Source of the DNA: an uncultured Lachnospiraceae bacterium
Lineage (GTDB): Bacteria > Bacillota > Clostridia > Lachnospirales > Lachnospiraceae
Reading direction: 5' to 3'
DNA: 64,000 bases
NCBI GenBank assembly: GCA_947564735.1
Contig: CANOEC010000001.1
Coordinates: forward strand, 246,813 to 310,812
The notes beneath the pieces are model-generated. The model saw only the letters and a list, made by a program, of their open reading frames with translations. It ran no database searches and was not told the DNA's origin. Position numbers and translations under genes: made by a program. Each line of letters starts with the position of its first letter. Within the stretch, counting starts at the first letter, position 1. Shown here in pieces: positions 139 to 24,710 of this stretch.

Positions 139-175
139 ATTTGTCTGATACAATTTTGAGAAGGAGGTGGAATTT

Positions 176-1060
176 TTGCATAAATTTATGCGAGCTATCG
201 GTTTTAGTCAATTAACTGACAGACAGGAACAGCAAAAATTGATCACGGATGTGATTCTGAATGCATCGCGCCGTTCTTATACATCTAATAGTAAAGAAAC
301 CATACTTGCAGAATTTTGTGAAGATTTTGCCAAGGATATGGGTATCGCCGTTTGTGGCGAGTTTGATGAAAACGATAAATTTACTTATGATTATTATTAT
401 CCTTATCTGCGTGGAACCGGAATCAGTTCGACTGAAGATGTTTCCGTGGAACGCCATGCAGACAAGGAATCTTATGCCGGAGTGTGCGATGATATCAAAG
501 TAGGTGTAAGTCTGATTTTTTATCTGCAAAATATGGTACCCTATGTCAAAGCACAGTATGAAAATACCCTGCCGATTAAAGGAACGACACTGACATTGTC
601 CGGTTTGTCGTTAAAGGGAAGTATCCTGCTGCCAATCAGTAAGAATGAAAAACAGAGGCAAAAGATACAAAAAGCGTCCATGAATAGAAACCAACTGATT
701 GACGCGGCAAGAAAAGGCGACGAGGACGCTATTGAGACACTAACGTTAGAAGACATGGACACATATACATCCATCTCTAAGAAAATTCTGACCGAAGATG
801 TATTTAGTCTGGTGGACACATACTTTATGCCGTATGGTGTAGAATGTGATCAGTATTCTATTATGGGAGAAATCATGGATATCTCTCTTCGTGTAAATAG
901 AATTACCGAAGAGGAGATTTACGTGATGCGGCTAAGTTGTAATGATCTGCAGTTTGACATATGCATCAATAAGCAGGATTTATACGGAGAACCGTTGGTG
1001 GGAAGAAGATTTAAAGGCGTTGTATGGATGCAGGGATATATTAATTATCCTTCGATATAA
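176..1060 (+). CDS. DUF3881 family protein
   Basis: A 294-residue cytoplasmic protein with no signal peptide or membrane segment. I recognise it from its start (MHKFMRAIGFS) and overall pattern as the DUF3881 family common in Lachnospiraceae; its function is unknown. I chose the TTG at 176 because AAGGAGG at 161-167 sits nine bases before it. The upstream in-frame GTG at 167 lies inside that ribosome site and cannot be the start. The gene follows serS by 37 bases and may be co-transcribed with it. The downstream 50 bases lead into a tRNA gene. The family call is from memory of sequence pattern. Confidence 0.8.
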   Translation: MHKFMRAIGFSQLTDRQEQQKLITDVILNASRRSYTSNSKETILAEFCEDFAKDMGIAVCGEFDENDKFTYDYYYPYLRGTGISSTEDVSVERHADKESYAGVCDDIKVGVSLIFYLQNMVPYVKAQYENTLPIKGTTLTLSGLSLKGSILLPISKNEKQRQKIQKASMNRNQLIDAARKGDEDAIETLTLEDMDTYTSISKKILTEDVFSLVDTYFMPYGVECDQYSIMGEIMDISLRVNRITEEEIYVMRLSCNDLQFDICINKQDLYGEPLVGRRFKGVVWMQGYINYPSI

Positions 1061-1111
1061 TGTTTTGACATTCAGCGCAAAGTTCTTTATAATAGGATAC
1101 AGGCAGTATCA

Positions 1112-1183
1112 GTTCCCTTAGTTAAATGGATATAACAGGAGCCTCCTAAGCCCCAGTTGTGAGTTCGATTCTCGCAGGGAACG
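1112..1183 (+). tRNA. tRNA-Arg (anticodon CCU)
   Basis: All four arms fold: acceptor GTTCCCT/AGGGAAC (1112-1118 with 1176-1182), D stem GTTA/TAAC, anticodon stem GGAGC/GCCCC with one A-C mismatch, loop CTCCTAA, and T arm GTGAG-TTCGATT-CTCGC with one G-U pair. The anticodon CCU reads AGG codons. The discriminator base is G at 1183. CCA is not encoded, so it must be added by the tRNA nucleotidyltransferase encoded at 29639. A terminator hairpin follows at once. Confidence 0.93.
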
Positions 1184-1185
1184 TT

Positions 1186-1233
1186 GAAAAAGGTTGTAAA
1201 TTCAAGGATTCTTGGACTTACAATCTTTTTTAT
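1186..1233 (+). terminator. intrinsic terminator after tRNA-Arg
   Basis: An AAAAAGGTTGTAAA arm pairs with TTACAATCTTTTTT across a 15-base loop that has its own small CAAG/CTTG stem. It ends in a T-run at 1225-1231. It directly follows the tRNA and separates it from the glycosidase locus. Confidence 0.8.
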
Positions 1234-1382
1234 TGTGGAAGATTCATAATTTGTAACTTATTTACGTCAGTCCGCAATTTTGGTCAATAGAGTGGCAAAT
1301 ACGATATAACATCTAAATCTTAATTCATATTCTCTTTCTTTAACTTATAAACCCATATTAATCATTAAAAAAAGAAAACTAT

Positions 1383-1438
1383 AAATTGTAATATTTTACA
1401 ATATATTGAAATACGTCTCATTCAGGGTATGGTAGCAT
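1383..1438 (+). promoter_or_regulatory. operator site A and promoter of the GH78 operon
   Basis: The 31-bp site 1383-1413 matches sites B (10917-10947) and C (14742-14772), with no gaps; A and C agree at 28 of 31 positions. It contains three tandem 10-bp units starting at 1386, 1396 and 1406 (TTGTAATATT, TTACAATATA, TTGAAATA..). A weak -10 box TAGCAT at 1433-1438 begins 27 bases after the third unit, the same distance as in B and C. The units are spaced one helical turn apart and abut the -35 region, as expected for an AraC-type activator. The rest of the gene-free stretch 1234-1550 is AT-rich and shows nothing else I can support. Confidence 0.7.
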
Positions 1439-1550
1439 TTAGATAAAATAGTAGATTTTTTAAAGAAAAAAAAGATAACTGCAATGACGGCGATGTAGTA
1501 AGAAAACTGCCAAAAAGGGACGGGTAACGAAGGAAAGGGAGGGCAACAAA

Positions 1551-4271
1551 ATGAAGCTATATGATTTTTGCATAGAATACAGAGAAAAGCCATTCGGGCT
1601 TTCCGTGAGAAAACCAAGATTTTCGTGGAAACTGGAAAGTGAAGGGCAAAATGTAGTCCAGACTGTATACCAATTACAAGTAATGTGTGAGGGAGAAACC
1701 GTCTGGGACAGCGGAAGGGTTGACAGTGACCAGTCAGTGCTGATTCCCTATGCAGGAAAAGCATTGGAAGAGGAAAAGGAATATCAGGTTTCGTTGTATG
1801 TGGAAGATAATCATCGACATCAGGCAGAAAGTGGTACATCGTTTTTTACAGGCATTTTTGATGGCACACATTTTCAGGCAAAAATGATTACGCATGATTT
1901 TGGTGAGGAAGAAAGGGCATGTCCCATTTTTTATACGGAATTTTCCATTGCAAAATCTATTAAAAGGGCATGTCTATATGTCACGGCACATGGCGTCTAC
2001 GAGGCGAGGATGAATGGCAGACGGATTGGAAATGATTATATGGCGCCCGGCTGGACAGAATACCACAAACGTCTGCAGTATCAGTCCTATGATGTCACAG
2101 AGAGCATAAATGCCGAAAATCTATTGGAAATAACAGTGGGGAATGGCTGGTATAAGGGGATATTAAGCTATGACTGCAAACCAAATCGTTATGGAGACAG
2201 GGTGGAGGTTTTTGCGGAGCTTCATATTTTGTATGAGGATGGCAGCAGGGAAGTAGTAGCTACCGGTTCCGATTGGAAGGTACGGACCGGAGAAATCCGT
2301 TACAGTGAGATTTACATGGGAGAGACCATTGACACAGATGCGCCGGAGCAGATGGAAGGAACCGTGTCAAAAACAGCATTTGACTGCGCAGTTCTTGTTC
2401 CGCAGGAGAGTGAACCGGTACGGGTGGTAGAGAGGATTCTGCCAAAGAGAATTTTTACAGACCCGAAAGGAAACAGGCTGGTGGATTTCGGGCAGAACCT
2501 TACAGGGCTTGTTGAGGTGAAGATTAAGGGGAAAAAAGGGCAGAAAATTTCCATAAGACATGCGGAAGTCTTGGATAGGGACGGTGTTTTTTATCCCGAT
2601 ACGCTCCGTACGGCAAAGTCTTTGGATACTTATATTTTGAATGGGGAAGAGCAGATATTAATGCCTCATTTTACATTCCATGGGTTCCGTTATATTGCGG
2701 TGGAGGGAATAGAAGATATAACGACGGGTATGTTTACGGCGTGTGCAATGCATACGGATATGAAAAAGACAGGAACATTCCACTGTTCCAATGAGGCGGT
2801 CAACAGGCTTCAGAGTAATATCGCGTGGAGTATCCGGGATAATTTTTTTGATATTCCTACAGACTGTCCTCAAAGGGATGAGCGGCTTGGCTGGATGGGA
2901 GATGCCCAAGTAATTTCATGGACGGCGGCATTTAACAATCAGGCTGCATTGTTTTTTACGAAATGGATGAGAGATGTGGCGGCAGCTTCATCTCTGGAAA
3001 AGGGTGTTCCCCATGTGGTTCCGGATATTCAAGGGTCTTACAGTTCTGCGGCGTGGAGTGATGCGGCTGTCATTATTCCATGGGTTGTTTATCAGACTTA
3101 CGGTGATGTGCGGATTCTGGAAGAAAACTGGCAGTGTATGCACGAATGGGTGGATTATATTCAAGATAAGGTAAATGAAAACGATTTGTGGAAAACCAAT
3201 TACCAGTTTGGTGACTGGCTGGCACTTGACAGGGAGCAGGGAGACAAAGTTGTCGGGGCTACGGACGTTTATTTCGTTGCAAATGCATGCTACTTATATG
3301 TGACGAAGCTGGTAGCGCAGACTGCGGAGATTCTTGGAAAAGAAAAAGAAGCAGAGCAGTATCATGCTTTATACGAAAAGACACTTGCCTCTTTCCGGGA
3401 AGAGTATTATACCCCAAGGGGAAGGATTGTAAGCGAGACACAGACAGGCTGTGTGCTCTCTCTTCATTTTGGATTGGCAAAGGAAAAGGACAAGGGTACA
3501 GTTCTAAAAGCGCTTCTTACCAATATTGAAGACCATCAAAATCATCTGACGACAGGATTTGTAGGTACGCCGTATTTGTGCCATGCTCTTTCTGACAGCG
3601 GTGCACATGAGATGGCGGCGCAGCTTTTTATGAGGGACGATTATCCGTCATGGCTCTATGCTGTAAAAATGGGGGCGACTACAATCTGGGAACGCTGGGA
3701 TGGTATCAGACCGGATGGTACGATGCCCCATCCGGGATTAAACTCATTCAATCACTATGCCAATGGTTCTATCGGGGATTGGATGTATCGGAAAATCGGC
3801 GGCATTAATCAATTAGAAGCGGGATATCACCGGTTTTATATAAAGCCCATGTTTGTAAGGGGGATTGAAGAAGCAAGGACAGAACTGGAAACGCCCTACG
3901 GTAAAATTACTTCGCTGTGGAGCTGCCGGGATAAAAAAATACATGTGGAAGTAAATGTGCCGGCAAACACAACCGCAGTCCTTTATCTGCCGGAAAAGGA
4001 TGAGGCTTTGGAAGTTGGTTCCGGCGTCTATGTGTATGAATATGATACGGAAACAAGCTTAAAGGAGCTTCGCTTTACCTTGGACAATACGCTTGGTGAA
4101 ATTATGGAGCAGCCTCTCGGTATGCAGATGCTTCAAGAAATGGTACCGGAACTGGTGGCAAGTCCGATGATTGAATATGCAAAGAAGATGACGCTGGCAG
4201 AAGGAATCAGTTCTGCGCCTGAAATTCGGGGTGCATATGAGGCGGTGCTTCATGCGCTGAATGGTGAATAG
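1551..4271 (+). CDS. GH78 alpha-L-rhamnosidase
   Basis: A 906-residue cytoplasmic enzyme that should release terminal alpha-L-rhamnose from rhamnosides such as plant flavonoid or saponin glycosides, or pectin fragments. It has the full bacterial rhamnosidase layout: N-terminal beta-sandwich domains, an (alpha/alpha)6 barrel with the hallmark D438-CPQRDERLGW segment carrying the acidic active-site residues, a second conserved stretch around WERWD (E714) followed by NHYANGSIGDW, and a C-terminal beta domain. Its length is typical for GH78. The ATG at 1551 follows GGGAGGG. There is no signal peptide, so the substrate must be imported. It is the first gene of a run of glycosidases behind operator A; the next gene starts 104 bases later. 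Confidence 0.93.
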   Translation: MKLYDFCIEYREKPFGLSVRKPRFSWKLESEGQNVVQTVYQLQVMCEGETVWDSGRVDSDQSVLIPYAGKALEEEKEYQVSLYVEDNHRHQAESGTSFFTGIFDGTHFQAKMITHDFGEEERACPIFYTEFSIAKSIKRACLYVTAHGVYEARMNGRRIGNDYMAPGWTEYHKRLQYQSYDVTESINAENLLEITVGNGWYKGILSYDCKPNRYGDRVEVFAELHILYEDGSREVVATGSDWKVRTGEIRYSEIYMGETIDTDAPEQMEGTVSKTAFDCAVLVPQESEPVRVVERILPKRIFTDPKGNRLVDFGQNLTGLVEVKIKGKKGQKISIRHAEVLDRDGVFYPDTLRTAKSLDTYILNGEEQILMPHFTFHGFRYIAVEGIEDITTGMFTACAMHTDMKKTGTFHCSNEAVNRLQSNIAWSIRDNFFDIPTDCPQRDERLGWMGDAQVISWTAAFNNQAALFFTKWMRDVAAASSLEKGVPHVVPDIQGSYSSAAWSDAAVIIPWVVYQTYGDVRILEENWQCMHEWVDYIQDKVNENDLWKTNYQFGDWLALDREQGDKVVGATDVYFVANACYLYVTKLVAQTAEILGKEKEAEQYHALYEKTLASFREEYYTPRGRIVSETQTGCVLSLHFGLAKEKDKGTVLKALLTNIEDHQNHLTTGFVGTPYLCHALSDSGAHEMAAQLFMRDDYPSWLYAVKMGATTIWERWDGIRPDGTMPHPGLNSFNHYANGSIGDWMYRKIGGINQLEAGYHRFYIKPMFVRGIEEARTELETPYGKITSLWSCRDKKIHVEVNVPANTTAVLYLPEKDEALEVGSGVYVYEYDTETSLKELRFTLDNTLGEIMEQPLGMQMLQEMVPELVASPMIEYAKKMTLAEGISSAPEIRGAYEAVLHALNGE

Positions 4272-4375
4272 TTAAAGTTTGGAGGGCAGTGAAGGAAGAG
4301 GTATTTGGCTCTTGCGGGCAGGGAGATTGTTGATTATGATATTATTAATAAAACAGACAGGAGCGATGGAGCGGT

Positions 4376-6847
4376 ATGGAGCAAAATTATATGGATACTA
4401 CCCTTACACCGTTAGAGAGGGCAGAAATTTTATTAAAACAATTGTCATTGGATGAAAAAATGGCTCAGGTGACGGGCGTATTTCCTTTTGATAAAGATGC
4501 GCAGGATTTTGAAGCAATCTGTTCGCGCACAAAATACGGGATTGGGACAGTTTCCACTTTGGAAGTGCGCCGGATAGAAACCTTGGAAGAAGCGGCGGCG
4601 TGGCAGAGACGTGTACAGCAGATTGTGATGGATAACAACCCTCATCATATTCCTGCAGCTTTCCATATGGAAGGGTTGTGTGGTGCGTTTATTCAGGATG
4701 CGGTCAGCTTTCCTGCGGGTATTGGTCGTGGAGCCGGCTTTGATCCGGAATTGGAAAAGGAAATTGCGAAGATTGTCAGCAGGCAGGAATTGGCATTTGG
4801 TGCGACGCAGATTCTGGCGCCGGTGCTGGATGTGGCATATGATCCCCGCATGGGAAGATTCGGGGAGAGTTATGGGGAAGATCCGACGCTTTGTGCAGCT
4901 ATGGGAACGGCTTATACAGAGGGGATTCAGCAGTCGGAACAAGCAGGGCGTAGAGCGGAGAGTATCGCCAAGCATTTTCTGGGATTTCATACCAGTGCGG
5001 GAGGTATTCACGGAACCTATGAGACGGTGACAGACCGTACTTTGCGGGAAGTATATGGAAAACCCTTTCAGGCGGCAATAAAAAAGGCGAAGCTGAAAGG
5101 CATTATGCCTTGCTATGATCCGATAAATGGAGAGTCGCCTTCGGCTTCCCGGACGATGCTGCAAGGTCTCCTTCGAGATGAGATGGGCTTTGAAGGCATC
5201 TGTTTTGGAGATTACGGTGCGGTGGGGCAGACCCACAGTACGCTCCATATGGAGGAGTCCATGGGAGATGCCGGGTATCGTTGTATGAAGGCAGGTATGG
5301 ATTTAGAAACGCCTGACCCGTGTGGTTTTAGTGATGAGCTTAAGGCTATGTTTTTAGACGGACGCGCTGATATTGCCATTCTCGACAGAGCGGTGCTGCG
5401 CATATTGGAATCAAAGTTCCGGCAGGGACTGTTTGAGCATCCCATGGCGCTTATGGGAGAAGAATTGCAGACATTTTTCCTGCAAAAGGAAGACCAGAAG
5501 GTTTCTTTGCAGGCTGCAAGGGAGTCCATGGTGCTTTTAAAAAATGACGGTGTTTTGCCAATCCGAAATAATGTGAGACGGATTGCGGTTATTGGTCCTC
5601 ATGCCGACCATCCGCGCAAAATGTTTGGCGGCTATACGCATCTTTGTATGATGGAATCTACTTTTGCGGTGGCAAATTCCATTGCCGGTGTAGCGGGCAG
5701 TGAGAATAGTTCCAAAGAAACGATAAAAACAGTGCCGGGGACAAATATCCAGTCGGATGAAACACCCGAACTGGATGCAATATTGGAACGCCAGAAACCT
5801 GATTGTATCAGTTTGGTAACGGCGCTTGAAAGGGCGCTTCCGGATGTGGAAATAACCTATGCCTATGGATATCCGGTGGCAGGCAGTGACGAGTCTGGAT
5901 TTGAGGAGGCGCTGGCAGTTGCGCAAGAGTCTGATTTAGTGATACTCACACTTGGAGGCAAGCATGGCACTTGTTCCTTAGCCACTATGGGGGAGGGCGT
6001 GGATGCAAGCAATATCAATCTGCCGCCCTGTCAGGACGCTTTTATCCGTAAGGTCAGTGCATTACAGAAACCGCTGGCAGGCGTCCATTTTGACGGACGA
6101 CCGATTTCTTCCGATGTGGCGGATGATTGTTTAAATGTTATTCTGGAAGCATGGAGTCCTGCGGAGATGGGTGCGCAGGCAGTCGTGGAAATTCTGACCG
6201 GAAAGGTCAATCCGAGTGGAAAGCTGCCGGTTACGGTTGCCCGGAATGCGGGTCAGCTGCCGGTGATTTATAATCATCCCAATGGCTCGTCATGGCATCA
6301 GAGCGGCAGCATTGGGTTTGCCAATTATGTAGATTTGCCCCACGCTCCACGTTATTATTTCGGGTATGGACTTAGCTATACGAGTTTTGAGTATAGCAAT
6401 CTCGTTATCAGGCATGCCGAATCCGCAGAAATAGACGGACTTGGACATAAAGACGTATCCGAGGAGGCGGGAGCTAAGATTGCGCCGACAGAAGCTGTAG
6501 AAGTCAGCTTCACGGTGAAAAATACAGGACAGGCGGACGGTTGCGAGATTGTGCAGATGTACCTGAAAGATGAATACGCCTCTATGGTTCGTCCGGTGAA
6601 AGAGCTGGCAGGATTTGTCCGTGTTAATCTATGTGCCGGTGAGAGCAGACGGGTGACATTTCGTGTGGAGGCTGGTCAGACGGCATTTCTTGACAAGGAT
6701 ATGCGTTGGAAGGTGGAGCATGGAAGAATATTGGTGGAGATTGGGGCATCGTCGGAGGATATCCGGTTGTCGGGTGAGTACCAAATCACAGGTGACGCTT
6801 ATATAGAAGGACGTGAACGTGCTTTTTGGAGCGAGGTGGAATTATAA
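4376..6847 (+). CDS. GH3 beta-glycosidase
   Basis: An 823-residue cytoplasmic GH3 enzyme with the usual order: TIM-barrel N domain, an alpha/beta sandwich C domain that begins near residue 385 (SMVLLKNDGVLP), and a C-terminal fibronectin III-like domain. The catalytic nucleophile is D279 in the GDYGAV segment, a slight variant of the common SDW. GFGYGLSYTSF-type residues mark the C-domain to FnIII transition. GH3 enzymes remove terminal beta-linked glucose, xylose or arabinose; sequence alone does not say which. It lies between GH78 and a second, permuted GH3, so it probably acts on the glycone left after rhamnose removal. The ATG at 4376 has AGGAG-type bases about ten bases upstream. Confidence 0.93.
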   Translation: MEQNYMDTTLTPLERAEILLKQLSLDEKMAQVTGVFPFDKDAQDFEAICSRTKYGIGTVSTLEVRRIETLEEAAAWQRRVQQIVMDNNPHHIPAAFHMEGLCGAFIQDAVSFPAGIGRGAGFDPELEKEIAKIVSRQELAFGATQILAPVLDVAYDPRMGRFGESYGEDPTLCAAMGTAYTEGIQQSEQAGRRAESIAKHFLGFHTSAGGIHGTYETVTDRTLREVYGKPFQAAIKKAKLKGIMPCYDPINGESPSASRTMLQGLLRDEMGFEGICFGDYGAVGQTHSTLHMEESMGDAGYRCMKAGMDLETPDPCGFSDELKAMFLDGRADIAILDRAVLRILESKFRQGLFEHPMALMGEELQTFFLQKEDQKVSLQAARESMVLLKNDGVLPIRNNVRRIAVIGPHADHPRKMFGGYTHLCMMESTFAVANSIAGVAGSENSSKETIKTVPGTNIQSDETPELDAILERQKPDCISLVTALERALPDVEITYAYGYPVAGSDESGFEEALAVAQESDLVILTLGGKHGTCSLATMGEGVDASNINLPPCQDAFIRKVSALQKPLAGVHFDGRPISSDVADDCLNVILEAWSPAEMGAQAVVEILTGKVNPSGKLPVTVARNAGQLPVIYNHPNGSSWHQSGSIGFANYVDLPHAPRYYFGYGLSYTSFEYSNLVIRHAESAEIDGLGHKDVSEEAGAKIAPTEAVEVSFTVKNTGQADGCEIVQMYLKDEYASMVRPVKELAGFVRVNLCAGESRRVTFRVEAGQTAFLDKDMRWKVEHGRILVEIGASSEDIRLSGEYQITGDAYIEGRERAFWSEVEL

Positions 6848-6892
6848 AAGTTGGTATGAAACGCCCATATCTTGGAAAGGAAGATTAGAACA

Positions 6893-9382
6893 ATGGACTG
6901 TTATAATTTAGCCCGTGAAATGGTAGAGAGCTCGATTGTGCTTTTAAAAAATGAGGGTAATCTGCTTCCCTTCAAGAAAAATCAGCGTGTGGCGATCTTT
7001 GGAAGGACACAGACGGAAACGATTTACAGCGGTAACGGAAGCGGGGCAGTCAGTACCGAGGGAGTGCCGAATATCCTTGAAGCGTGTACAAAAGCCGGTA
7101 TCATGCCTGTGGAGGAGCTTGCAGTATTTTATAGGAATCTGGAGAAGCCGGCGGAAGTGGATGCGCCCAACTGGGAAGATATGGCTGCCATGGCGAAGCT
7201 TGTGCACAGCGGTGCAATTTATGAATACTTTGGGAAGTACCGTCCTGTGCCGGAAGAGTCAGTAGTGCCGGATGAATTGATTATGCAGGCAGCAGGTCAG
7301 ACAGATGCGGCGGTTTATGTGCTGGGGCGTTGTGCAGGTGGTGAGGAATGTGACCGTCATCTGGAAAATGATTATTATCTTTCCGATGTGGAGAAAGCAT
7401 TCATCGAACAAATCTGCAAAGCATTTCCAAAGGTTGTGCTGGTGCTGAATATCAATGGATTAGTTGATTTAGGCTGGCTTTTAGATTATCCGGAAATCCG
7501 GAGCGTATTGTTTCTGGGCGTGCCCGGAGAGGCGGGGGCGGAGGCGCTTGCGCGTATTCTTGTCGGTGCGGTTTCACCGTCGGGAAAAATGGCAGTAACT
7601 GTTCCTTTTCAGTACAGTGATTTTCCCTGTGCAGAACATTTTTCGTGGGATAAAGACAATCTTTCCAGTATAAAGACTTATGCGGATTATGGTCTGGACG
7701 CACGAGAAAATGGCAGCAAAGGCTTTGAACTTAGTCCTGTGACCGTATATCATGAAGGGTTATACAACGGATACCGTTTTTTTGATACTTTTCAGATAAA
7801 AGCAATGTATCCGTTCGGATTTGGACTGTCTTATACGAGTTTTGCTTACGGTCAGACTGAAATTTGCAGTACAAAACAAGGCATGGAATTAAAAGTATCC
7901 GTTACGAATACAGGCGGATGCGCCGGACGTGAAGTAGTGCAGGTTTATATCGGCACTCGGCAGGTTTGCGGTGATGCGCCGGCACACACGCTACAGGGTT
8001 TTGCCAAGACCGGGACGCTTATGCCCGGCAGTACGGAAACGGCACATGTATTCATACCATGGCGCGGTTTTGCAAGGTATCGGGAGAAAGATGCGGCGTG
8101 GGTTATTCCTCAAGGGGATTATGAGATATGTCTTGGAGAAGATGCCACCCATTTGCATCAGATTGCAAAAGTCAGCGTCCCGGAAGAGATATTGGTGGAG
8201 CAGAACTGTAATTTGCTTGGGCTTCATCCGGCGAATCAAGGGAAACTGGATTTTCTGAGGTACGAAAATCTGCAGTATGGGGACGACGCCGGAGCAGATT
8301 ATGTGCGGTGCAAAGAGGACTTTGAAGCAGATTACATGCAGTGTAAGGAAAACGTTGGGACAGATTTTGTGCTGCAAAAGGAAGGTAATGCGTTCAGCTT
8401 CCGGCAGGACAAAGTTAAGGTACAAGAGAAGCGGCACACAATGGATTTATCAGATTTTTCTGTGGAAGAACTTGCTGCTTTGTGCGTCGGATATGGTCCG
8501 GGCACACCCTTTTCCGCCTTTGGAGATAAAGAGGAGCCTTGCACGATTTATGACAGGGATGGAAAGCCTCTTACCAAAAATGATCATCCGTCGGGAATGC
8601 ATGGCTATGTCTCGCCTGCAATGCCAAAGAAGGGGATTCATTCCGTCAGTTATAAGGATGGACCTGCGGGAATCGGCGATATTGCGTGGCCCTCTGAGAT
8701 GTTGATTGCCTGCTCATTTGATGAAGGATTGTGTGAACGATTTGGCGATGCGGTGGGTGGTGAATGTGAAGCGCAGGGCGTGGATATATGGCTTGCCCCG
8801 GCGGTCAATCTGCACAGACATCCTTTGTGTGGAAGAGCCTTTGAGTATTTCTCGGAAGATCCGGTTCTCACTGGTCGTCTCGCCTGTTCGATTGTGCGCG
8901 GTGTTCAGGAGAAGCACCATGTTTTGGTCTGTCCGAAACATTTTGTCGTAAATGAGCAGGAGACCTTCCGGCGTGGCAGTACGAGACTGCATGTGGATGC
9001 GGCGGATTCCGTCATTGAAGAACGCACCCTGCGGGAGCTGTATCTGCTTCCCTTTGAAATGTTAGTACGTGAGGGAAATGTTCATTGTATCATGACTTCT
9101 TTTAACAAGATAAATGGGGTATTTGCCGCTGGTAATGAGCAGTTGTGTACAAGCCTTCTTCGTGACGAATGGGGATTTGACGGTGCGGTGGTGACAGACT
9201 GGGGAGATATGGATACGGTGGTGGACGGTGCGGATGCCGTCGCTGCAGGAAATGATATTGTTATGCCGGGCGGTCCGCCTGTGATTAAGCAGATTCTGGC
9301 GGGATTTAAGGAAGGACGTTTAGACCGTGCGCAATTGGAAAAAGCGGTGGGACATCTGTTAGATATGTTAAGGAAGGATTAG
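6893..9382 (+). CDS. GH3 beta-glycosidase with swapped domain order
   Basis: An 829-residue GH3 enzyme in which the domains are circularly permuted. Residues about 1-300 match the GH3 C domain (SSIVLLKNEGNLLPF at the start), residues about 300-420 are the fibronectin III-like part, and the TIM barrel comes last, from about residue 520. The nucleophile is D769 in VVTDWGDMDT. This inverted order is known for some rumen clostridial beta-glucosidases, for example that of Butyrivibrio fibrisolvens. I start at the ATG at 6893 behind GGAAAGGAAG; the in-frame TTG at 6872 overlaps that ribosome site. A low-complexity linker rich in C, D, E and Y (about residues 460-510) joins the halves. It sits 45 bases after the first GH3 and 7 before the next gene, so the genes are surely one operon. 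Confidence 0.92.
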   Translation: MDCYNLAREMVESSIVLLKNEGNLLPFKKNQRVAIFGRTQTETIYSGNGSGAVSTEGVPNILEACTKAGIMPVEELAVFYRNLEKPAEVDAPNWEDMAAMAKLVHSGAIYEYFGKYRPVPEESVVPDELIMQAAGQTDAAVYVLGRCAGGEECDRHLENDYYLSDVEKAFIEQICKAFPKVVLVLNINGLVDLGWLLDYPEIRSVLFLGVPGEAGAEALARILVGAVSPSGKMAVTVPFQYSDFPCAEHFSWDKDNLSSIKTYADYGLDARENGSKGFELSPVTVYHEGLYNGYRFFDTFQIKAMYPFGFGLSYTSFAYGQTEICSTKQGMELKVSVTNTGGCAGREVVQVYIGTRQVCGDAPAHTLQGFAKTGTLMPGSTETAHVFIPWRGFARYREKDAAWVIPQGDYEICLGEDATHLHQIAKVSVPEEILVEQNCNLLGLHPANQGKLDFLRYENLQYGDDAGADYVRCKEDFEADYMQCKENVGTDFVLQKEGNAFSFRQDKVKVQEKRHTMDLSDFSVEELAALCVGYGPGTPFSAFGDKEEPCTIYDRDGKPLTKNDHPSGMHGYVSPAMPKKGIHSVSYKDGPAGIGDIAWPSEMLIACSFDEGLCERFGDAVGGECEAQGVDIWLAPAVNLHRHPLCGRAFEYFSEDPVLTGRLACSIVRGVQEKHHVLVCPKHFVVNEQETFRRGSTRLHVDAADSVIEERTLRELYLLPFEMLVREGNVHCIMTSFNKINGVFAAGNEQLCTSLLRDEWGFDGAVVTDWGDMDTVVDGADAVAAGNDIVMPGGPPVIKQILAGFKEGRLDRAQLEKAVGHLLDMLRKD

Positions 9383-9389
9383 GAATAAA

Positions 9390-10910
9390 ATGAAAAAATA
9401 TTCGGAATTTATAATAAAAGACAAAAAAGGCACTCTGATGCTGGATGGTAAACCATATCTTATTTTAGGCGGCGAGGCGTGTAATTCCAGCCCGTCGAGT
9501 CTTGCTTATATGGAAGAAAATGTTTTGCCACATATCCGGCATCTGCATTTAAATACGCTGCTTGTCCCGGTTTCGTGGGAACTATTGGAGCCGGAACCGG
9601 ATACTTTTGATTTTACGCTGCCCGATGGACTAATCCAACAGGCGGAAACAGAGGGCATTAAGCTGATATTTCTATGGTTTGGATTATGGAAGAATGGTGA
9701 GAGCACTTATGTGCCCCATTGGGTCAAGGAGAATCCGGAAACATATTTTTATATGCAGACCAGATACGGAAAACATGTGAATGCTGTTTCTCCTCTATGT
9801 GATGCTGCAGTCAGAAGGGATGCGGCAGCTTTTACGGCATTGATGGAGCATTTACGGGAATTTGACCAGAATCGAACGGTGATTATGATTCAAGTGGAAA
9901 ATGAGATGGGGCTGTTGGAGGATAGCCGGGATTATAGTCCTTTGGCAGAAAAATGCTACGCTTCTGAGATTCCCGCCGGGATAGCAGAGCTTTACCATAC
10001 AAGCGGAACATGGAAGCAGGCTTTTGGGGAAGAGGCAGCAGAACTGTTTATGACATATTGGTATGCAAAAGCGACGGAATCTATTGCGTCGGCAGGAAAG
10101 GCGGTTTATCCGCTTTCTATGTATGCCAATGCATGGCTGGAACAATATCCGGTCGGTTATCCGAGCGGAGGACCTACCGCAAGGCGCTTGGATATCTGGA
10201 AAGCATTTGCTCCCTCGCTGGCTTTTCTTTCCCCGGATATCTATCTGCCGGATTTTGAGGCAGTCTGCAGAGAGTATACAGACTGTGGCAATCAGCTTTT
10301 TATACCGGAGGCAAGACCCTCTATGGATTCTGCATCGAATGTATTTGCAGCCTTCGGACAATACGGAGCCTTGGGATTTTCGCCATTTGCGATTGAGGAA
10401 GTGGGCAAAGAAGGGACTCCGCCAGATAAGGAAGCTTTGGCAAAACTTAGTATCATGGAGGATGCTTTCAACCATTATAGGGCGGGAGAATATTTGGCAA
10501 AAAGCTATAAGCTGCTTAGCGGCATGACGGGCATAGTAGAGAAATACCGCTGTACGGAGCATATGAAGGGATTTACACAGTTTGCAAATGAAGGAACGAT
10601 TGTGCGGTTTCGCCAGTATGATTTTAAAGTATTTTATGAGGATGGCGGTGTAGAATCACCGAAAGGCGGAGGACTCATGATTGAACTTGGCAATGATGAA
10701 TTTCTGGTGTGCGGGCTGAATATCCGTATAGAACCTTGCCCGAAAAGCGACGACAGAAGCTATGTAAAGATTGCTTCTATCACGGAAGGGCATTATGAGA
10801 ACGATATCTGGCATCCCGGAAGACGATTGAATGGAGATGAATTTTCTATTCGGATTAAGAAAGAGCCGACAGCGCTTTTGTGTAAATTAATAAGAATAGC
10901 GGCAGGATAA
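9390..10910 (+). CDS. GH35-like (DUF5597-type) beta-galactosidase family protein
   Basis: A 506-residue cytoplasmic clan GH-A enzyme. Conserved acids are visible in the right places: E172 in QVENEMG as acid/base and E307 in FIPEARP as nucleophile. The beta-strand 1 region has LGGEACNSS and the LLVPVSWELLEP pattern typical of GH35/GH42-like barrels. The C-terminal 150 residues form a smaller beta domain, as in DUF5597 proteins. Family members are annotated as beta-galactosidases, but few have been tested, and the specificity here is open. It is the last gene of the GH78 operon, 7 bases behind the permuted GH3. Operator B begins only 7 bases after its stop codon, and I see no terminator between. 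Confidence 0.8.
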   Translation: MKKYSEFIIKDKKGTLMLDGKPYLILGGEACNSSPSSLAYMEENVLPHIRHLHLNTLLVPVSWELLEPEPDTFDFTLPDGLIQQAETEGIKLIFLWFGLWKNGESTYVPHWVKENPETYFYMQTRYGKHVNAVSPLCDAAVRRDAAAFTALMEHLREFDQNRTVIMIQVENEMGLLEDSRDYSPLAEKCYASEIPAGIAELYHTSGTWKQAFGEEAAELFMTYWYAKATESIASAGKAVYPLSMYANAWLEQYPVGYPSGGPTARRLDIWKAFAPSLAFLSPDIYLPDFEAVCREYTDCGNQLFIPEARPSMDSASNVFAAFGQYGALGFSPFAIEEVGKEGTPPDKEALAKLSIMEDAFNHYRAGEYLAKSYKLLSGMTGIVEKYRCTEHMKGFTQFANEGTIVRFRQYDFKVFYEDGGVESPKGGGLMIELGNDEFLVCGLNIRIEPCPKSDDRSYVKIASITEGHYENDIWHPGRRLNGDEFSIRIKKEPTALLCKLIRIAAG

Positions 10911-10916
10911 AACCAT

Positions 10917-10972
10917 AATTTATAATATTATACAATATTTTGCAATACGGCATGGAAGAGTCTTGATATAAT
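10917..10972 (+). promoter_or_regulatory. operator site B and promoter of the phosphorylase gene
   Basis: Site 10917-10947 matches site C at 27 of 31 positions, ungapped. Its three 10-bp units start at 10920, 10930 and 10940 and end in TTGCAATA. A perfect -10 box TATAAT at 10967-10972 lies 27 bases after the start of the third unit, exactly as at sites A and C. The extra flank CCATAA before the site is also shared with C. Confidence 0.78.
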
Positions 10973-11087
10973 TTAGTAACAGTTCAATCGGGCAGAAAGG
11001 ACTGTTACTAAATTTTTGCACAATTTTAGGAAGCAACAGCAAACAAACAGATGCTAAAAAGAGTCATTGTTGAGAAAGGGTGCCGAT

Positions 11088-13394
11088 ATGTCAAAGAAAA
11101 TCCATGAATTTATAAATGATGGAAACTCCTGTGTGATTAAAGATTCCAAGCCGCCAAGATACTGGTATAACTATCTTTGGAATGAGAACGGTTTTCTAGC
11201 GCAGGTTTCCCAGATTGGGCACGGAAGAAGCTACTATCTGAACGAGAAAGCGGATATGTGCATGATCAATAACAATGATGCAAGATATCTTTATTTTCGT
11301 GATGAAGAAGATATGTCCTGCTGGAATATTGGCGAGGGACCTTTGAATGAATCAGTGGAAAATTACAGATGCGAGCACAGCATTGCTTATTCCGAGTTAA
11401 GCTCGGACAGGGCGGGAATCCATGCATCTTTAAAACTTTTTGTTCCTCAGGACGGATATAATGAAGTGTGGAAGCTGACAATTAGGAACGATAGTGACAG
11501 AGAAAGGCGACTGAGTATATTTTCGGCGGTTACTTTTGAGCTGGAAGGATTCCAATATCCCCGGTATTATGAAATGTACCGCTGCCTTGAGACATTTTAT
11601 GATGAAAAGCTGAATGGAATTTACTGTCAGTCTTCCCATCCGTTTGCGCCGCATAAGAGGTATAACGGTTATCTGGCATGTTCGGAAAAGGTGTATGCTT
11701 ACGATGGGGATATGGCGAAATTCTGTGGAGCGGCTAGTGCTATTACGCGATTGGACGCCAGCGCCTTTGCCCTGTTCCAGAGACCGGATGTGGTTGTGAA
11801 AGGAATGGATTGCACGAACTCTCTGTCCGCACTTTTGATTGTTGGAGGGGCATTGCAGAACAAAATCGTTCTAGCGCCGGGTGAAGAGAAAGTAATCAGT
11901 TATGTTTTTGGCGTGAGCGAGTCCTTAGAGGAGGCAAGAGAAGTCTCCGCAAAGTATGCGGATGCGAAAACGCTGGAGAAGGAGTTTAAGCGGACGGTAG
12001 AGTATAACCACGACAAATACAGTTCCTTAAGCGTTCATACGCCGGATGAAAAAATAAACAATGTCATGAATAACTGGGTCAGAAAGCAGATTGACTGTTG
12101 TATTGTTGGGAAAAAAGGTGTGCGGGATAACTTACAGATTGCCGTTGCGCTGTTAAATTACAGGCAGCAGAAGGCAAAGGAGGAGATTATCGAATGTCTG
12201 CGCCATCAGTTTTGCGACGGGCATACGGTACTCACATGGTATCCCTACGATGATACCAGATATTCTGACCAGCCCTTCTGGATTATCTGGGCAGTCTGTG
12301 AACTGATTAAGGAGACAGGGGATTATACGTTGCTTGAGCAGGTAATCGAATATCAGGACGGCGGGGAAGACACAATGCTTGCACATGTGAAGGCGGCTGT
12401 GAACAGGCTGATTGCTGATAAAGGGAAAAACGGACTGGTAAAAATCTATTTTGCAGACTGGAACGATGCCTTGAACATTACCACAGACCCGGAGGCAGAG
12501 TCTGTCATGCTCTCCCATCAATTCTGCCTTGCCTTAAGAGAATTGAGTGTGTTAATGAGAAAAATTGGAGATGAGGATTACGCCGCTTTTCTTGACAGGG
12601 AATATGAAACGTTAAGGGAAAGCATCAACGATAAGGCGTGGGATGGCGAATGGTATATGCGCGCGTTAAGTGATGTCGAGAATATCGGCTCCAAAGACAG
12701 CACTGGCAGTAAAATATACTTAAATGCACAGACATGGGCAGTTCTTGCCGGAGTGCCTGATGAAGAAAAACTTCCAAAGGTAATTGAGGCGATTGACTCC
12801 ATGGAACATGACTTCGGCTATCCTTTGAATATGCCGCCCTATACGGAATATTCGCCCAATGTGGGACGTATGGCGGGGATGCTTCCGGGATTATTTGAAA
12901 ACGGCGGTGTCTACTGCCATGCCACAAGTTTTAAGATTTTGATGGACTGTGAGATTGGCAGAGGGGATGAGGCTGTCAGGACACTTAAAAAAATCATGCC
13001 GGACAGTGATTTAAATCCGTCCACTAATTCCGGGGCGGAACCCTATGTGTTTACAAATTGTTATTCGGCACATCCGAAATATTACGGCAAATCTTACCAG
13101 TCGTGGACGACCGGTACATCCGCGTGGGCGATGCGGGGATTATGTGAAGGGATGCTTGGAGTAAAGAGAGATTACGACGGATTAAAGATTGCGCCCTGTT
13201 TTCCGTCACATTGGGATAAAGCGGAAATGACGAGAGAGTTTCGGGGAGCAAAATATCATATTACCATAGAAAATCCGCAGTATCTGGCAAATGCGGCAGC
13301 AGTCATTTGGGTTGACGGCAGAAAACTGGATGGAAATGTTGTTCCGGCTTTTGGGGACGGGAATATGCATGAGATAGGGGTTCTGTTAGTTTAA
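11088..13394 (+). CDS. GH94-like glycoside phosphorylase
   Basis: A 768-residue cytoplasmic protein of the cellobiose phosphorylase group. These enzymes cleave beta-glucosidic disaccharides with phosphate to give a sugar 1-phosphate, which saves ATP. The N-terminal third is the beta-sandwich domain, followed by an (alpha/alpha)6 barrel with the signature FADWNDALN; D457 and D460 are the acidic pair and D460 is the likely general acid. Further family marks are NGGVYCHATSFKI and SWTTGTSAWAMRG, then a C-terminal KIAPCFPSHW segment. Substrate class (cellobiose, laminaribiose, chitobiose or other) cannot be read from this. The ATG at 11088 follows GAGAAAGGG; the in-frame TTG at 11067 is less likely. 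It has its own operator/promoter B and lies tail to tail with the AraC remnant. Confidence 0.85.
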   Translation: MSKKIHEFINDGNSCVIKDSKPPRYWYNYLWNENGFLAQVSQIGHGRSYYLNEKADMCMINNNDARYLYFRDEEDMSCWNIGEGPLNESVENYRCEHSIAYSELSSDRAGIHASLKLFVPQDGYNEVWKLTIRNDSDRERRLSIFSAVTFELEGFQYPRYYEMYRCLETFYDEKLNGIYCQSSHPFAPHKRYNGYLACSEKVYAYDGDMAKFCGAASAITRLDASAFALFQRPDVVVKGMDCTNSLSALLIVGGALQNKIVLAPGEEKVISYVFGVSESLEEAREVSAKYADAKTLEKEFKRTVEYNHDKYSSLSVHTPDEKINNVMNNWVRKQIDCCIVGKKGVRDNLQIAVALLNYRQQKAKEEIIECLRHQFCDGHTVLTWYPYDDTRYSDQPFWIIWAVCELIKETGDYTLLEQVIEYQDGGEDTMLAHVKAAVNRLIADKGKNGLVKIYFADWNDALNITTDPEAESVMLSHQFCLALRELSVLMRKIGDEDYAAFLDREYETLRESINDKAWDGEWYMRALSDVENIGSKDSTGSKIYLNAQTWAVLAGVPDEEKLPKVIEAIDSMEHDFGYPLNMPPYTEYSPNVGRMAGMLPGLFENGGVYCHATSFKILMDCEIGRGDEAVRTLKKIMPDSDLNPSTNSGAEPYVFTNCYSAHPKYYGKSYQSWTTGTSAWAMRGLCEGMLGVKRDYDGLKIAPCFPSHWDKAEMTREFRGAKYHITIENPQYLANAAAVIWVDGRKLDGNVVPAFGDGNMHEIGVLLV

Positions 13395-13436
13395 GACTTC
13401 ACTGAATAGCATGAACAGCAGCATTCTTTACGAATG

Positions 13437-14636
13437 CTACTGATTCTGTTTTCTGTATTGCAAAGGAGTAATATGATATTGCTTTTTGAACACTTGCTGG
13501 AAATAGGACTGATTGCTAAAACAGAGATAATTGCTGATTTCCGCCAGACTTTTATCGGTATAGGTCAAAAGGCTCTTTGCTTCTTCCAGCTTACAGCGCA
13601 TGATAAAGGCGCCCATATTGATACCTAATTCGTTTTTAAAATGCCGCAGAGTATAGAAAAAACTTACCAGCTGATTGATTTATATATTCAGGAATGCGAA
13701 CAGCTTCAGACAATCGAAGCCGTGAAGGAACTACAGTATTCCATGCTGATTGATTTCTGTGGAAACACCTTCCGGGATATGGGTCTCGGCTGTCCGTCCA
13801 CAGAAATCAATCAGCATGGAATACTGTAGTTCCTTCACGGCTTCGATTGTCTGAAGCTGTTCGCATTCCTGAATATATAAATCAATCAGCTGGTAAGTTT
13901 TTTCTACATCAACGCCGCCGGGGATGGCGCCCAGCATACCGGTTTTCACGACTGTTATGATAAATAGGTTTTTCGCCTGTCTGAGCGGCGTATTTGCCAA
14001 TTTTCCCTCTGTAAGAGTCGAAGAGGAGGCAGCGAGAAAATCCTCTAGGTTTTTAATGTTTCCGCTCTGGATATGACTCCAGAGCTGCTTTTCAAAATGG
14101 TAGGTATTATGGAGAAGATTGTTTTCCATATTAGCTGCTATTTTTTGTGCCTGTTGTTTCTTCAATTCCTGTACATCTTGTTCCGGGTGCTTGAACAACG
14201 CGGAAGTATCCATTACTTTACCGTTCAGACTCATATGGAGCAGGGCAAGATGATTTGAAAATTGCTGATGGCTTAAAATGGGAATGGAGCAGAGGAGTTC
14301 TGCAACTGCTTCCCGATATTCTGCAGGAATAGCGTTTTCCCGTATATATTCATGTATAAGGGCATCCGATACAGGAACGCTGAAAGACGGACCAATAATT
14401 ACATAGTAATCCGTTCCTTCTATATGGACACATCCGTATTCAAGGTCCGGTGAATAACGGCAGAAGCAGGGATTTTGTTCCGTCGGGGAAAGAGTCCAGA
14501 AGACCTGATAGGTTTTTTCCGGCTGATAGGTAAGAAGAGTGCTGATTGTGGAATAGACCGGTTTGTTGTTTTCCATCAGGTCGATTGGCATATTGGTAAC
14601 GGCAAAATAATTTTTACAGAAATTAATATAGTCCAT
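13437..14636 (-). pseudogene. AraC-family transcriptional regulator, interrupted by a foldback duplication
   Basis: On the minus strand an intact frame (14636 to 13731, 301 residues) encodes an N-terminal sensor domain and linker, but it stops before the DNA-binding domain. The end of that domain is still present at 13650-13437 in the same orientation: TLRHFKNELGINMGAF, then EISNYLCFSNQSYF and TPLQYRKQNQ before a TAG at 13439-13437. Between them the expected first helix-turn-helix (about 40 residues) is replaced by an inverted copy of the preceding 110 bases, which brings a stop after nine foreign residues (TEINQHGIL). So the gene as read cannot make a complete AraC protein. It is divergent from the GH-A gene at 14930 and sits amid the three 31-bp operators, so it is the obvious candidate for their regulator. 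Confidence 0.85.
13654..13906. repeat. perfect 110-bp inverted repeat with 33-bp spacer
   Basis: Bases 13654-13763 are the exact reverse complement of 13797-13906; the spacer is 13764-13796. The right arm is the native coding sequence of the AraC gene (residues EKTYQLIDLYIQEC through LIDFCG on the minus strand) and the spacer is its natural continuation (RTAETHIPEGV). The left arm is therefore the copied one. The absence of any mismatch means a very recent event or an assembly foldback. Confidence 0.95.
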
Positions 14637-14741
14637 GGATTTATCGTTCCTTTCCGGAGAAGAGAGTCACAGAATTGCGAATGTATTGCTTATGATTATA
14701 AGAAATAGTGTATTCGGAAAATATAGAAAAAGCAAGACCAT

Positions 14742-14797
14742 AATTTATAATATTTTGCAATATATTGAAATAAATATAAATTTTTTCATGCTATACT
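14742..14797 (+). promoter_or_regulatory. operator site C and promoter of the GH-A/GPH operon
   Basis: Site 14742-14772 holds three 10-bp units starting at 14745, 14755 and 14765 (TTATAATATT, TTGCAATATA, TTGAAATA). The -10 box TATACT at 14792-14797 lies 27 bases after the start of the third unit. The site lies in the 293-bp gap between the divergent AraC remnant and the GH-A gene, so it could also serve autoregulation. Nothing else is evident in the gap 14637-14929 apart from the ribosome site GGAGAAAGG before 14930. Confidence 0.78.
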
Positions 14798-14929
14798 TCA
14801 ACCAACACATTGATAAATGCGAAACAAAGGGCAAGGCTGAATAGATTCCGTGTTAGGCAGTCATTTAACAAGCGGAGTAAGTTTTGCTGAAATATATGAT
14901 GATTTGAAAAGGAAAAAAGGAGAAAGGTT

Positions 14930-17368
14930 ATGAAACAAAGGATTCGGATTCACAAAGCTGAGGCAAATAAGGGCGTTCTTGATTTTTCCTATCTGTTGGA
15001 TGCACCTGCCGGGAAACATGGTTTTGTCAGGGCGTCTAAGGGGCACTTCTATTTTGAAGACGGTGTACGTGCACGTTTTCTGGGCTTTAATGTGGCGGCG
15101 CGTTCCAATACGCCCGACCATGAAACTGCGGAAAAAATAGCGGAGAGGTTTGCGAGCTTGGGAGTCAATGTTATTCGGCTTCATGCCGCTGATGCGCCAA
15201 TCCGGGATAAACCGCGCACATGGGCAAGCTGCAGGGAGACGCCCCTGTTAGATTATGAAAGCGGCAGTTCGCGTCACTTTACCAAAGAGGGATTAGACTG
15301 CTTTGACTATTTTTTTGCCAAATTGAAAGAGAAAGGGATTTATATACATATAGATTTGTTGGTAGCACGTGCGTTTCAGGACGGAGATAATCCGGATTAT
15401 CCCGGTGAAATTCCGGTGGGCGCCAAGTGTTATCCTACAATGAATGAGAGACTCATTGAACTGGAGCAGGAGTATGCGCGGAATCTTCTTTGCCATGTGA
15501 ATCCGTATACCGGTCTGGCAATCATTGACGACCCTGCAGTTATGACGATTCAGCTGACTAATGAGGAGTCTTTTATCAAAGGTACCGGCGATACCAATGA
15601 TATTCCACATCTTCAGCCGTACCGCGATGAGAGGCAGGCGCGTTTCAATTATTTTCTGCTGACGAAATACCACACCAGAGAGCGCCTGAAGGAAGCATGG
15701 ACGTATGAGGGCGTCTGTGCATTGGGAGACGAGGAAGATCCGGCGACAAATACGGTGGCGGTGGTACAAGGTGATTTTGTACAGCCGGTAAATGACCCGA
15801 TGGGTGCGTGGGATGGTCCGGTCAGCCCTGCCCGGTATGCCGATTACATGGAGTTTGGCATTCAGATGAATCGGAAGTATTATCAGCGGATGAAGGATTT
15901 TGTCCATTCACTGGGATGTAAGGTTCCCATCGTATGTTCCAACCTTTTGGGCGGGGCTGCAGACGTCTACGGACATTCGGACGGCGACTTGATGGAGAAC
16001 AACAGCTACTTCAATCATCCGGTTCCGCCTTTTCAGGACGAACATGTATTTACTGCAGCGGGACCAAGTGAATACGTATCTACCAATCCTCTGACCCTTC
16101 AGAGAGGGCTGGGTTCTCTTGCCACGAATATGCAGACGCTGGGCGGGACTGCCGTCATACAGGGAAAACCCTATATGTTCAGCGAATGGAATGATTATGG
16201 TCTGCATCCCTTCCGTTCCACCACATTCGTTCACACAGTAGCCTATGCCTGCTTAAATGACTGGGATGGACTGATTCTCTATAACCACCATACTTCTGAG
16301 AAGCTTGATGACCAGCCAGCGGATGAAATCTTAAATGTATTTGACTGTTACAACGACCCGGCAGTGATTTGCCAGTGGGGATTTATGGCTTCGGTATTTT
16401 ACAAGGGATTGGTGAAGGTTTCTTCCCATAGGGCGGATATTGTCTTTACCCAGAATGATTTGCGGACTCTGTCGAAATGGCATGCGATGCCGAACTGTTT
16501 TCTGCCGTATGTCATGAACATGCGTAATGTTTTCTTAGATGGCGGCGACAACTATCAGTCAGACGCGGATGTGGCTGTGAATGCCGGATTCTTAAATGGC
16601 GCGGATTTGCGGGATGCAAATCATAGCGTGTATTATGCTTGGTCGCCTTATCGGGACGCCTATAGACGTGCGAAGGATGAAATAAGACTTATCGAAGCAG
16701 CAAAGAATACCGACGAAAAGGAGCCGGGGATCCACCTTGGAAAACAGTCATTGGTCTTTGACGATATCAATGCAGTTTCGGGTACCGGTGATTATCAGAA
16801 GTTTGCCGCTGTCATGGATGCAGCACTAAAGGAGTGGGGTATTCTGCCGAAGGATACCGGATATGTGGATGGCAAGCTGATTTCGGACACAGGAGAGCTT
16901 GTTTTTGATCCGGATCACGCGAGATTTACGATTAAATCTGCCGGATGTGGTTATTTCAGCGGCGCGCCGGAGGATAGGATTGTCTTATCCGACACTATCA
17001 GCGCAGTATCAAAAAATGAACGGATATCCATTTCCCTGCTGCCGGTGGGACAGGATAGTCTGGAGGGTGCAAAGGAATATGTGATTACCGCAATGGGCAG
17101 TACCGGTATGGATGAAACAACCTACGAGCCGGGTCCGGAGCTATTTCCGGGGTTTTCTTTAAAAGTCATGACTTTGAAAGGCAAGCTCTATGCGGACACA
17201 CTGGAAGGAAGCTTGTCCGTAAAAGCCGGGGCGGCTAAGCTGGAACTGCTAAGTCCCGTGGGAGAGGTTCTTGCAACGCTTGAAGGTGTAAAGACGGCGG
17301 ACGGTGTGAGATTTGATTTGGACGGAGGCATTCCCAGTGTGCAGTATAGGCTGGTGATTCAGGGGTGA
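14930..17368 (+). CDS. clan GH-A glycoside hydrolase, family not assigned
   Basis: An 812-residue cytoplasmic protein with a (beta/alpha)8 barrel of clan GH-A. The opening ARFLGFNVAARSNTP and LGVNVIRLHAAD patterns resemble GH5-like barrels. E212 follows N211 in LTNEES, the usual acid/base position, and E419 in FSEWND is the likely nucleophile. The C-terminal 250 residues are beta-rich and probably an ancillary domain. I do not recognise a characterised subfamily. The barrel-plus-beta-domain layout is found in many uncharacterised gut Firmicutes proteins. The ATG at 14930 follows GGAGAAAGG. With the GPH symporter 127 bases downstream it forms the third unit of the operator-defined regulon. Confidence 0.75.
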   Translation: MKQRIRIHKAEANKGVLDFSYLLDAPAGKHGFVRASKGHFYFEDGVRARFLGFNVAARSNTPDHETAEKIAERFASLGVNVIRLHAADAPIRDKPRTWASCRETPLLDYESGSSRHFTKEGLDCFDYFFAKLKEKGIYIHIDLLVARAFQDGDNPDYPGEIPVGAKCYPTMNERLIELEQEYARNLLCHVNPYTGLAIIDDPAVMTIQLTNEESFIKGTGDTNDIPHLQPYRDERQARFNYFLLTKYHTRERLKEAWTYEGVCALGDEEDPATNTVAVVQGDFVQPVNDPMGAWDGPVSPARYADYMEFGIQMNRKYYQRMKDFVHSLGCKVPIVCSNLLGGAADVYGHSDGDLMENNSYFNHPVPPFQDEHVFTAAGPSEYVSTNPLTLQRGLGSLATNMQTLGGTAVIQGKPYMFSEWNDYGLHPFRSTTFVHTVAYACLNDWDGLILYNHHTSEKLDDQPADEILNVFDCYNDPAVICQWGFMASVFYKGLVKVSSHRADIVFTQNDLRTLSKWHAMPNCFLPYVMNMRNVFLDGGDNYQSDADVAVNAGFLNGADLRDANHSVYYAWSPYRDAYRRAKDEIRLIEAAKNTDEKEPGIHLGKQSLVFDDINAVSGTGDYQKFAAVMDAALKEWGILPKDTGYVDGKLISDTGELVFDPDHARFTIKSAGCGYFSGAPEDRIVLSDTISAVSKNERISISLLPVGQDSLEGAKEYVITAMGSTGMDETTYEPGPELFPGFSLKVMTLKGKLYADTLEGSLSVKAGAAKLELLSPVGEVLATLEGVKTADGVRFDLDGGIPSVQYRLVIQG

Positions 17369-24669: not shown

Positions 24670-24710
24670 ATCAGAAAATAATACAAAAAATACAGAATAA
24701 TATCCATTTT

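Follow-up and report, generated by a model that had tools for sequence, protein, structure and literature searches.

Three predicted AraC-type operators with a 20-bp direct repeat and a lineage-limited middle unit in an uncultured Lachnospiraceae bacterium

AraC-family rhamnose regulators of Bacillales, Bacteroides and Enterococcus have direct-repeat operators and are encoded beside sugar genes (PMC3870299). Likewise, the AraC-family carbohydrate regulators of Caldicellulosiruptor bescii, predicted activators, are associated with tandem repeats that have large spacers and lie upstream of promoters, and the cellobiose phosphorylase operon of this organism carries a direct repeat for an unknown factor (PMC8579813). 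In E. coli, AraC at araI1-I2 and MarA and Rob at their boxes combine two helix-turn-helix motifs (HTH) with an A-box and a B-box, Arg90 of MarA being named as a key B-box residue (PMC8279559). The present work deals with a 64,000-nucleotide stretch from an uncultured Lachnospiraceae bacterium (assembly GCA_947564735.1, contig CANOEC010000001.1, positions 246,813 to 310,812; hereafter the window), in which three 31-bp sites precede genes for glycoside breakdown. The sites very probably serve as operators for a local activator of the AraC family, whose gene lies divergently beside the third of them and which would switch on glycoside catabolism. The rhamnose regulators show a 21-bp periodicity and group-specific motifs (PMC3870299), whereas the pitch is 20 bp here, the units are of the type AWWTTRCAAT and the gene set is another one; the C. 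bescii regulators differ in clade and gene content, and AraC, MarA and Rob in that the boxes here are AWWTTRCAAT, the sensor domain is TIGR04094-like and the -10 element is extended. The system appears to be of a known kind, with a regulon that seems new in itself and one lineage-limited odd feature.

The three sites lie on the forward strand at 1383-1413 (site 1; decamers 1383-1392, 1393-1402 and 1403-1412 plus a final A), ahead of a GH78 gene, at 10917-10947 (site 2), ahead of a GH94 phosphorylase gene, and at 14742-14772 (site 3), between the AraC gene and the gene of an 812-aa enzyme. An earlier note, made from the sequence alone, gave their coordinates and letters exactly, and its ungapped identities of 28/31 for sites 1 and 3 and 27/31 for sites 2 and 3 hold; sites 1 and 2, a pair absent from that note, agree at 26/31 positions. 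At all three sites the -10 hexamer (TAGCAT, TATAAT and TATACT) begins, as claimed, 27 bases after the start of that note's third unit, which is 19 nt after position 31. Each hexamer is directly preceded by TGN, a feature that had been overlooked and that makes it an extended -10 element: TGG-TAGCAT at 1430-1438 for site 1, TGA-TATAAT at 10964-10972 for site 2 and TGC-TATACT at 14789-14797 for site 3. The flanks are dissimilar, with 7, 9 and 12 of 40 positions identical upstream and 7, 13 and 15 of 40 past the -10 element, so there is no clear sign that the sites arose recently by copying from each other.

For comparison we used 80 loci around GH94 homologues together with loci of the 812-aa enzyme; several of them duplicate the same contigs (e.g. 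L011 and L093). From the relatives we extracted 43 intergenic regions that separate a divergent AraC gene from the gene of the 812-aa enzyme; a few of these regions are the same contig twice, and one (L052, 1483 bp between the genes) is probably a false pairing. The sites of the relatives were first spotted by scanning with a matrix made from the three window sites. A relatives-only matrix, seeded with a typed two-unit consensus at 20-bp pitch and trained on the upstream regions of the relatives with the window sequence excluded, gave 85 sites (71 distinct), 13 of which are intergenic DNA counted a second time on the AraC strand. This matrix contains two strong decamers, AWWTTRYAAT and AWWTTRCAATA (D1 and D3), set 20 bp apart and each preceded at one turn by a weaker decamer (D0 and D2). 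The two weak boxes are alike, to a degree reached in 0.0003 of 20000 column permutations. Self-similarity, taken over lags 5 to 25, is positive at 20 alone and negative at 10, and with the spacing left free 54 of the 58 AraC upstream regions have their best unit pair at 20 and the other four at 15, 19, 26 and 31; the D1-D3 pitch was part of the matrix seed and the unit matrix came from sites chosen at this pitch, so that neither test is independent of the seed, as the likeness of D0 and D2 and the offset of the -10 element are. We read this arrangement, direct repeats about two helical turns apart, as the two 20-bp half-sites of an AraC-type dimer. The claim of the earlier note that three helical-phase repeats define the operator could not be upheld, since the repeats of the relatives correspond to units 1 and 3 and their middle decamer is never unit-like; instead of three decamers, the dimer of a double-HTH AraC protein would occupy four (A-box, B-box, A-box, B-box).

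The distance to the promoter is conserved as well. In 57 of 58 distinct promoters of the relatives a TANNNT hexamer, which formed no part of the matrix, starts exactly 19 nt after the operator, and in 40 of the 58 it has TGN ahead of it; these contexts, from which AraC-strand rows and scores under 25 were left out, are distinct but not phylogenetically independent. All three window promoters share this geometry, and the fixed operator-to-(-10) distance put forward in the earlier note is borne out on both sides. The operators thus hold a fixed position beside the -10 element and cover the -35 region, as do those of the AraC/XylS type. With the promoter-proximal unit over the -35 region, class II activation at an extended -10 promoter would be the natural reading. 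In araI, too, the promoter-proximal half lies at -35.

The three 31-bp sites are real and occur beyond chance. The relatives-only matrix scores them at 32.5 (site 2), 29.5 (site 3) and 28.6 (site 1), the next-best site in the window, including a stretch with a second AraC-type gene and a GH127 gene, reaching 8.7; in 60 simulated 64-kb windows the maximum was 16.0 and the mean 7.1. A 22-bp core pattern with up to three mismatches has 49 matches in the own genome compared with 33 for the reversed control, and at one mismatch the three window sites are the only ones. A 28-bp pattern from the three sites, with up to two mismatches, gave three matches in the own genome and none for the control, and a single match in 396 other genomes of the same family. 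This lone extra match (L163 of genome G280) was rejected, as by eye it stands before an ORF for a PHP-type hydrolase and beside an AraC gene of another type. Near matches are therefore few, not the hundreds at random AT-rich sites that the earlier note had named as fatal to its proposal, and the scan of genome and relatives with a weight matrix that it called for places the three sites at the top of the window and finds sites before the orthologous genes of dozens of relatives, the absence of which would have told equally against a regulon. Against the sites stands the outcome of a sequence-only model trained on the relatives (R1; 40 of 52 sites free of near-duplicates): in the whole genome it gave the top rank (E 1e-4) to site 2 and the fifth (E 0.55) to site 3, and site 1 is absent from its 23 matches at E <=10, for which 150 of 3377 candidates were scored. 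The weak outcome for sites 1 and 3 is probably due to their deviating bases and to the prefilter.

Operators and AraC genes occur together. With leave-one-out matrices on the 80 GH94 loci, an operator scoring at least 18 together with a -10 element was found at 48 of 49 loci that have the AraC gene, as against 12 of 31 that lack it (Fisher 2e-9, a value that is too strong because the loci are related); at the one remaining locus with the gene, L066, the pair at 20 bp is degenerate. No operator with a -10 element was found in the GH94 loci of Paenibacillus, Clostridium bowmanii, Clostridium lacusfryxellense, Planctomycetota and Omnitrophota, all of them without this AraC. In genome G051, which encodes the 812-aa enzyme, there is no AraC match at E <=1e-40 and no forward-strand site in the 1.5 kb ahead of the enzyme gene. 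Across 99 genomes (the own and 98 others) a motif match at E <=5e-4 and an AraC match at E <=2e-79 pick out the same ten, a coincidence that is partly circular, since the R1 training sites come in part from the same genomes and the cut-offs were chosen after the lists had been seen. These data support the earlier suggestion that the neighbouring AraC protein is the likely activator and that the operons form one regulon.

The relatives of this protein have the expected two-HTH C-terminal domain, with PF12833 and PF00165 recognized in L055 and L034, and in the structural model of L055 (pLDDT 81.6, pTM 0.39) the DNA-binding domain matches AraT, XylR and MarA. The top NCBIfam model over sensor domain and HTH in three relatives is TIGR04094, the YSIRK-targeted surface antigen transcriptional regulator, at 148.3 to 161.8 bits compared with a cut-off of 200; the N-terminal ORF of the window scores 83.9, so that the protein falls below this family's cut-off, and it is encoded beside glycosidase genes. 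A search for solved structures related to the N-terminal ORF returned none (best E 0.12). Three AraC paralogues with 37-38% identity (L126, L159 and L162) are likewise accompanied by a divergent operator of this type and its -10 element, so the operator code seems not to be confined to the AraC orthologues.

Further evidence comes from covariation between protein and DNA. Each AraC was paired with its own divergent operator, TANNNT at +19 being required and identical operator/HTH2 pairs merged, which left 46 pairs plus window site 3. In the 46 pairs, the top two of 2856 residue-base combinations by normalised mutual information join N378 (L055 numbering) to operator positions 4 and 27, in a ranking that carries no correction for phylogeny and in which raw mutual information places other pairs higher. 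With the window included, asparagine at residue 378 goes with C27 in 41 of 42 cases, and glutamine, serine or threonine in none of five (Fisher 4e-6). In the model N378 sits in the second recognition helix (373-384), presumably at the place of Arg90 in MarA. Glutamine at this residue occurs in none of the 59 HTH2 sequences of relatives examined. In a tree of the sensor domains the proteins without asparagine fall at three places, namely the window lineage, L033/L041 and L025/L026; L033/L041 group with L057, which has N and C, in an inner order that the tree does not resolve, and the sister of the window protein, L055 (support 0.91), keeps N and C. The covariation links this AraC to these sites, would place its second HTH on units 1 and 3 and accounts for the TGAAAT of window sites 1 and 3.

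On these grounds, that is an operator with 20-bp pitch and fixed -10 element, its co-occurrence with the AraC gene and its covariation with HTH2, all of them recognizable in sequence, we infer binding, dimerisation, activation and a ligand as follows. Once the sensor domain meets its ligand, glycoside catabolism would be switched on. The working operator would consist of two direct 20-bp half-sites, each an A-box followed by a B-box, with decamers 1 and 3 as B-boxes; in each subunit the B-box would be read by the second HTH, and the weaker box a turn further upstream by the first. With the promoter-proximal B-box covering the -35 region, the bound dimer would compensate for a poor -35 element by class II activation at the extended -10 element 19 nt away. 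At all three sites of this genome the intervening decamer, too, has turned B-box-like.

Apart from the dependence of the spacing tests on the seed and the relatedness of the loci, several observations weigh against this mechanism. Twelve of 31 loci have operator and -10 element and no detected AraC; one of the loci without AraC, L071, has a 37.3-bit operator and no TANNNT at +19. At the level of genomes, G074, which lacks the AraC, lies just above the motif cut at 5.3e-4, and some R1 match at E <=0.1 is found in 59 of the 99 genomes. Position 27 is A in window sites 1 and 3 but C in site 2, where TGCAAT is kept, and at position 4, where covariation is strongest, the window sites show no change, which counts against a strict rule. 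Finally, the AraC gene of the window is broken in the assembly, and in the own genome the next best match to the L055 protein by E-value is 30% identical.

The middle repeat sets the window apart from its relatives. In the 52 sites that remain after removal of near-duplicates the middle decamer is never unit-like (score at least 5; best -3.5), as against scores of 15.1, 12.0 and 14.5 in the three window sites. It is thus a lineage-limited addition, so far found in this genome only, and the register relative to the -10 element indicates that units 1 and 3 are ancestral and the middle unit is new. With unrelated flanks, a single copied operator does not easily explain its presence at all three sites. 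The decamers ahead of unit 1, in the position of an A-box, are not unit-like: that of site 1 (1373-1382), aligned with the ACAAGA-type decamer of the relatives, has an A-box score of 0.7, that of site 2 (10907-10916) one of 3.3, and that of site 3 (14732-14741), GCAAGACCAT as compared with ACAAGATAGA in several relatives, one of 2.2. All are within the D0 range of the relatives (-4.3 to 8.1), so a changed first HTH need not be assumed. The middle unit might be functionless, the product of neutral drift of a middle decamer wandering in AT-rich DNA under weak A-box constraint. The A-box is indeed weakly constrained, and as A-boxes the middle decamers of the window (-0.6 to 3.9) still fall within the span of the relatives (-4.4 to 6.4). 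A random AT-rich decamer, however, reaches a unit score of 9 with a probability of about 0.002 in a single-base model, and all three sites score about 12 or more despite their unrelated flanks, so that we regard drift as rather improbable. Somewhat less probable still is one particular functional role, in which a third B-box gained halfway between the ancestral two at all three promoters may let the AraC protein dock in a second register that excludes the first (with the middle box taken by HTH2 and box 1 by HTH1), so as to tune or block activation; if true, this would be an AraC operator with three docking sites, an arrangement not seen in the relatives examined. The three tandem units of the window sites, with their unit-like middle decamers, could also be taken as the true operator of a protein reading consecutive turns, be it a PhoB/OmpR-like winged helix or a DeoR-type regulator of 10-11 bp direct repeats, a periodicity given for the operators of DeoR-family RhaR in PMC3870299. 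We consider this very improbable: the middle decamer is unit-like in none of the relatives' sites while outer units and -10 distance are kept, the self-similarity at lag 10 is negative, and none of the ten ORFs scanned in 167-19996 belongs to a DeoR or response-regulator family. As a general rule, a three-unit 10-bp operator is rejected.

Equally far from our preferred AraC half-sites, and if anything a shade more improbable than consecutive units, are overlapping palindromes (TTGCAATATATTG-like) for a repressor of the LacI, GntR or TetR type. Adjoining units do form short inverted repeats, TTGCAA being self-complementary; the conserved halves, on the other hand, are direct repeats 20 bp apart, a location over the -35 region and immediately ahead of it suits an activator, and the site covaries with HTH2 of the AraC protein. 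Palindromic repressor sites with the inverted symmetry of LacI-type operators were rejected on account of these direct repeats, no separate palindrome scan having been made. A more serious alternative, although still clearly the lesser one, is that the operators are orphaned here, the AraC gene being truly destroyed and the sites relics or adopted by another regulator. This gene (13446-14636, reverse strand, divergent from the gene of the 812-aa enzyme) shows 55% identity with the intact protein of L055 across residues 1-394 and has one TAG and one TAA inside. Its open N-terminal ORF occupies 13731-14636 and a remnant of HTH2 remains at the 3' end; the two-HTH domain is not intact, as the region of HTH1 is replaced by an inverted copy, the left arm (13654-13763) of a perfect inverted repeat of 110 bp whose right arm (13797-13906) follows after a loop of 33 nt. 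The pair is the sole one found in the window among inverted repeats of at least 30 bp within 1 kb. The replacement and the internal stops speak for orphaned operators, but the perfect arms indicate a very recent event or an assembly fault, and the HTH2 remnant and all three sites are well preserved. From perfect arms and preserved sites together, a recent event or assembly fault is suggested. The segment 13640-13920 folds as DNA at -142.8 kcal/mol compared with -28.9 for shuffles. In place of the HTH1 region stands a reversed copy of neighbouring sequence, as would arise from a template-switch mutation or a faulty assembly.

The contents of the three operons correspond to what the earlier note had listed; the genes of these operons are on the forward strand. 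Site 1 is followed by a GH78 alpha-L-rhamnosidase-like gene (1551-4271; PF17389, 1.4e-115), a GH3 gene (4376-6847), a second GH3 gene in which the C-terminal domain is encoded before the N-terminal domain (6872-9382) and a GH35-family gene (9390-10910; PF01301 above the cut-off, NF051902 at 493.9 bits just below its cut-off of 500). Site 2 precedes a gene for a GH94 disaccharide phosphorylase (11067-13394; PF17167, 2.9e-78), whose best matches among solved structures are cellobiose phosphorylases. Downstream of site 3 lie the genes for the 812-aa enzyme (14930-17368) and a GPH-type sugar symporter (17421-18911; PF13347, 4.6e-54). The 812-aa enzyme has no Pfam match at E <=10 and no NCBIfam family. 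Its AF2 model (pLDDT 84.2, pTM 0.89) shows a barrel like that of clan GH-A and beta domains, with Foldseek matches to GH42, GH35 and GH5 enzymes at about 10% identity, and the protein is 60-71% identical among 27 aligned relatives. It possibly represents an unnamed glycoside hydrolase family. The second AraC-type gene of the window lies in the stretch 23812-29124, followed by the GH127 gene and, by eye, a GH3 gene.

Searches of open-licence PMC papers found no description of this regulon, and a search for the string TTTTGCAATA with AraC gave no related-looking title among those listed. The operator proposed here provides a testable sequence for a widespread Firmicutes AraC subfamily encoded beside glycoside-degrading enzymes, and the covariation points to a single residue of the recognition helix that seems to determine one base of the operator. 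Such a code would permit regulon prediction in many uncultured species, and inducibility would offer a route to the glycoside on which these enzymes act.

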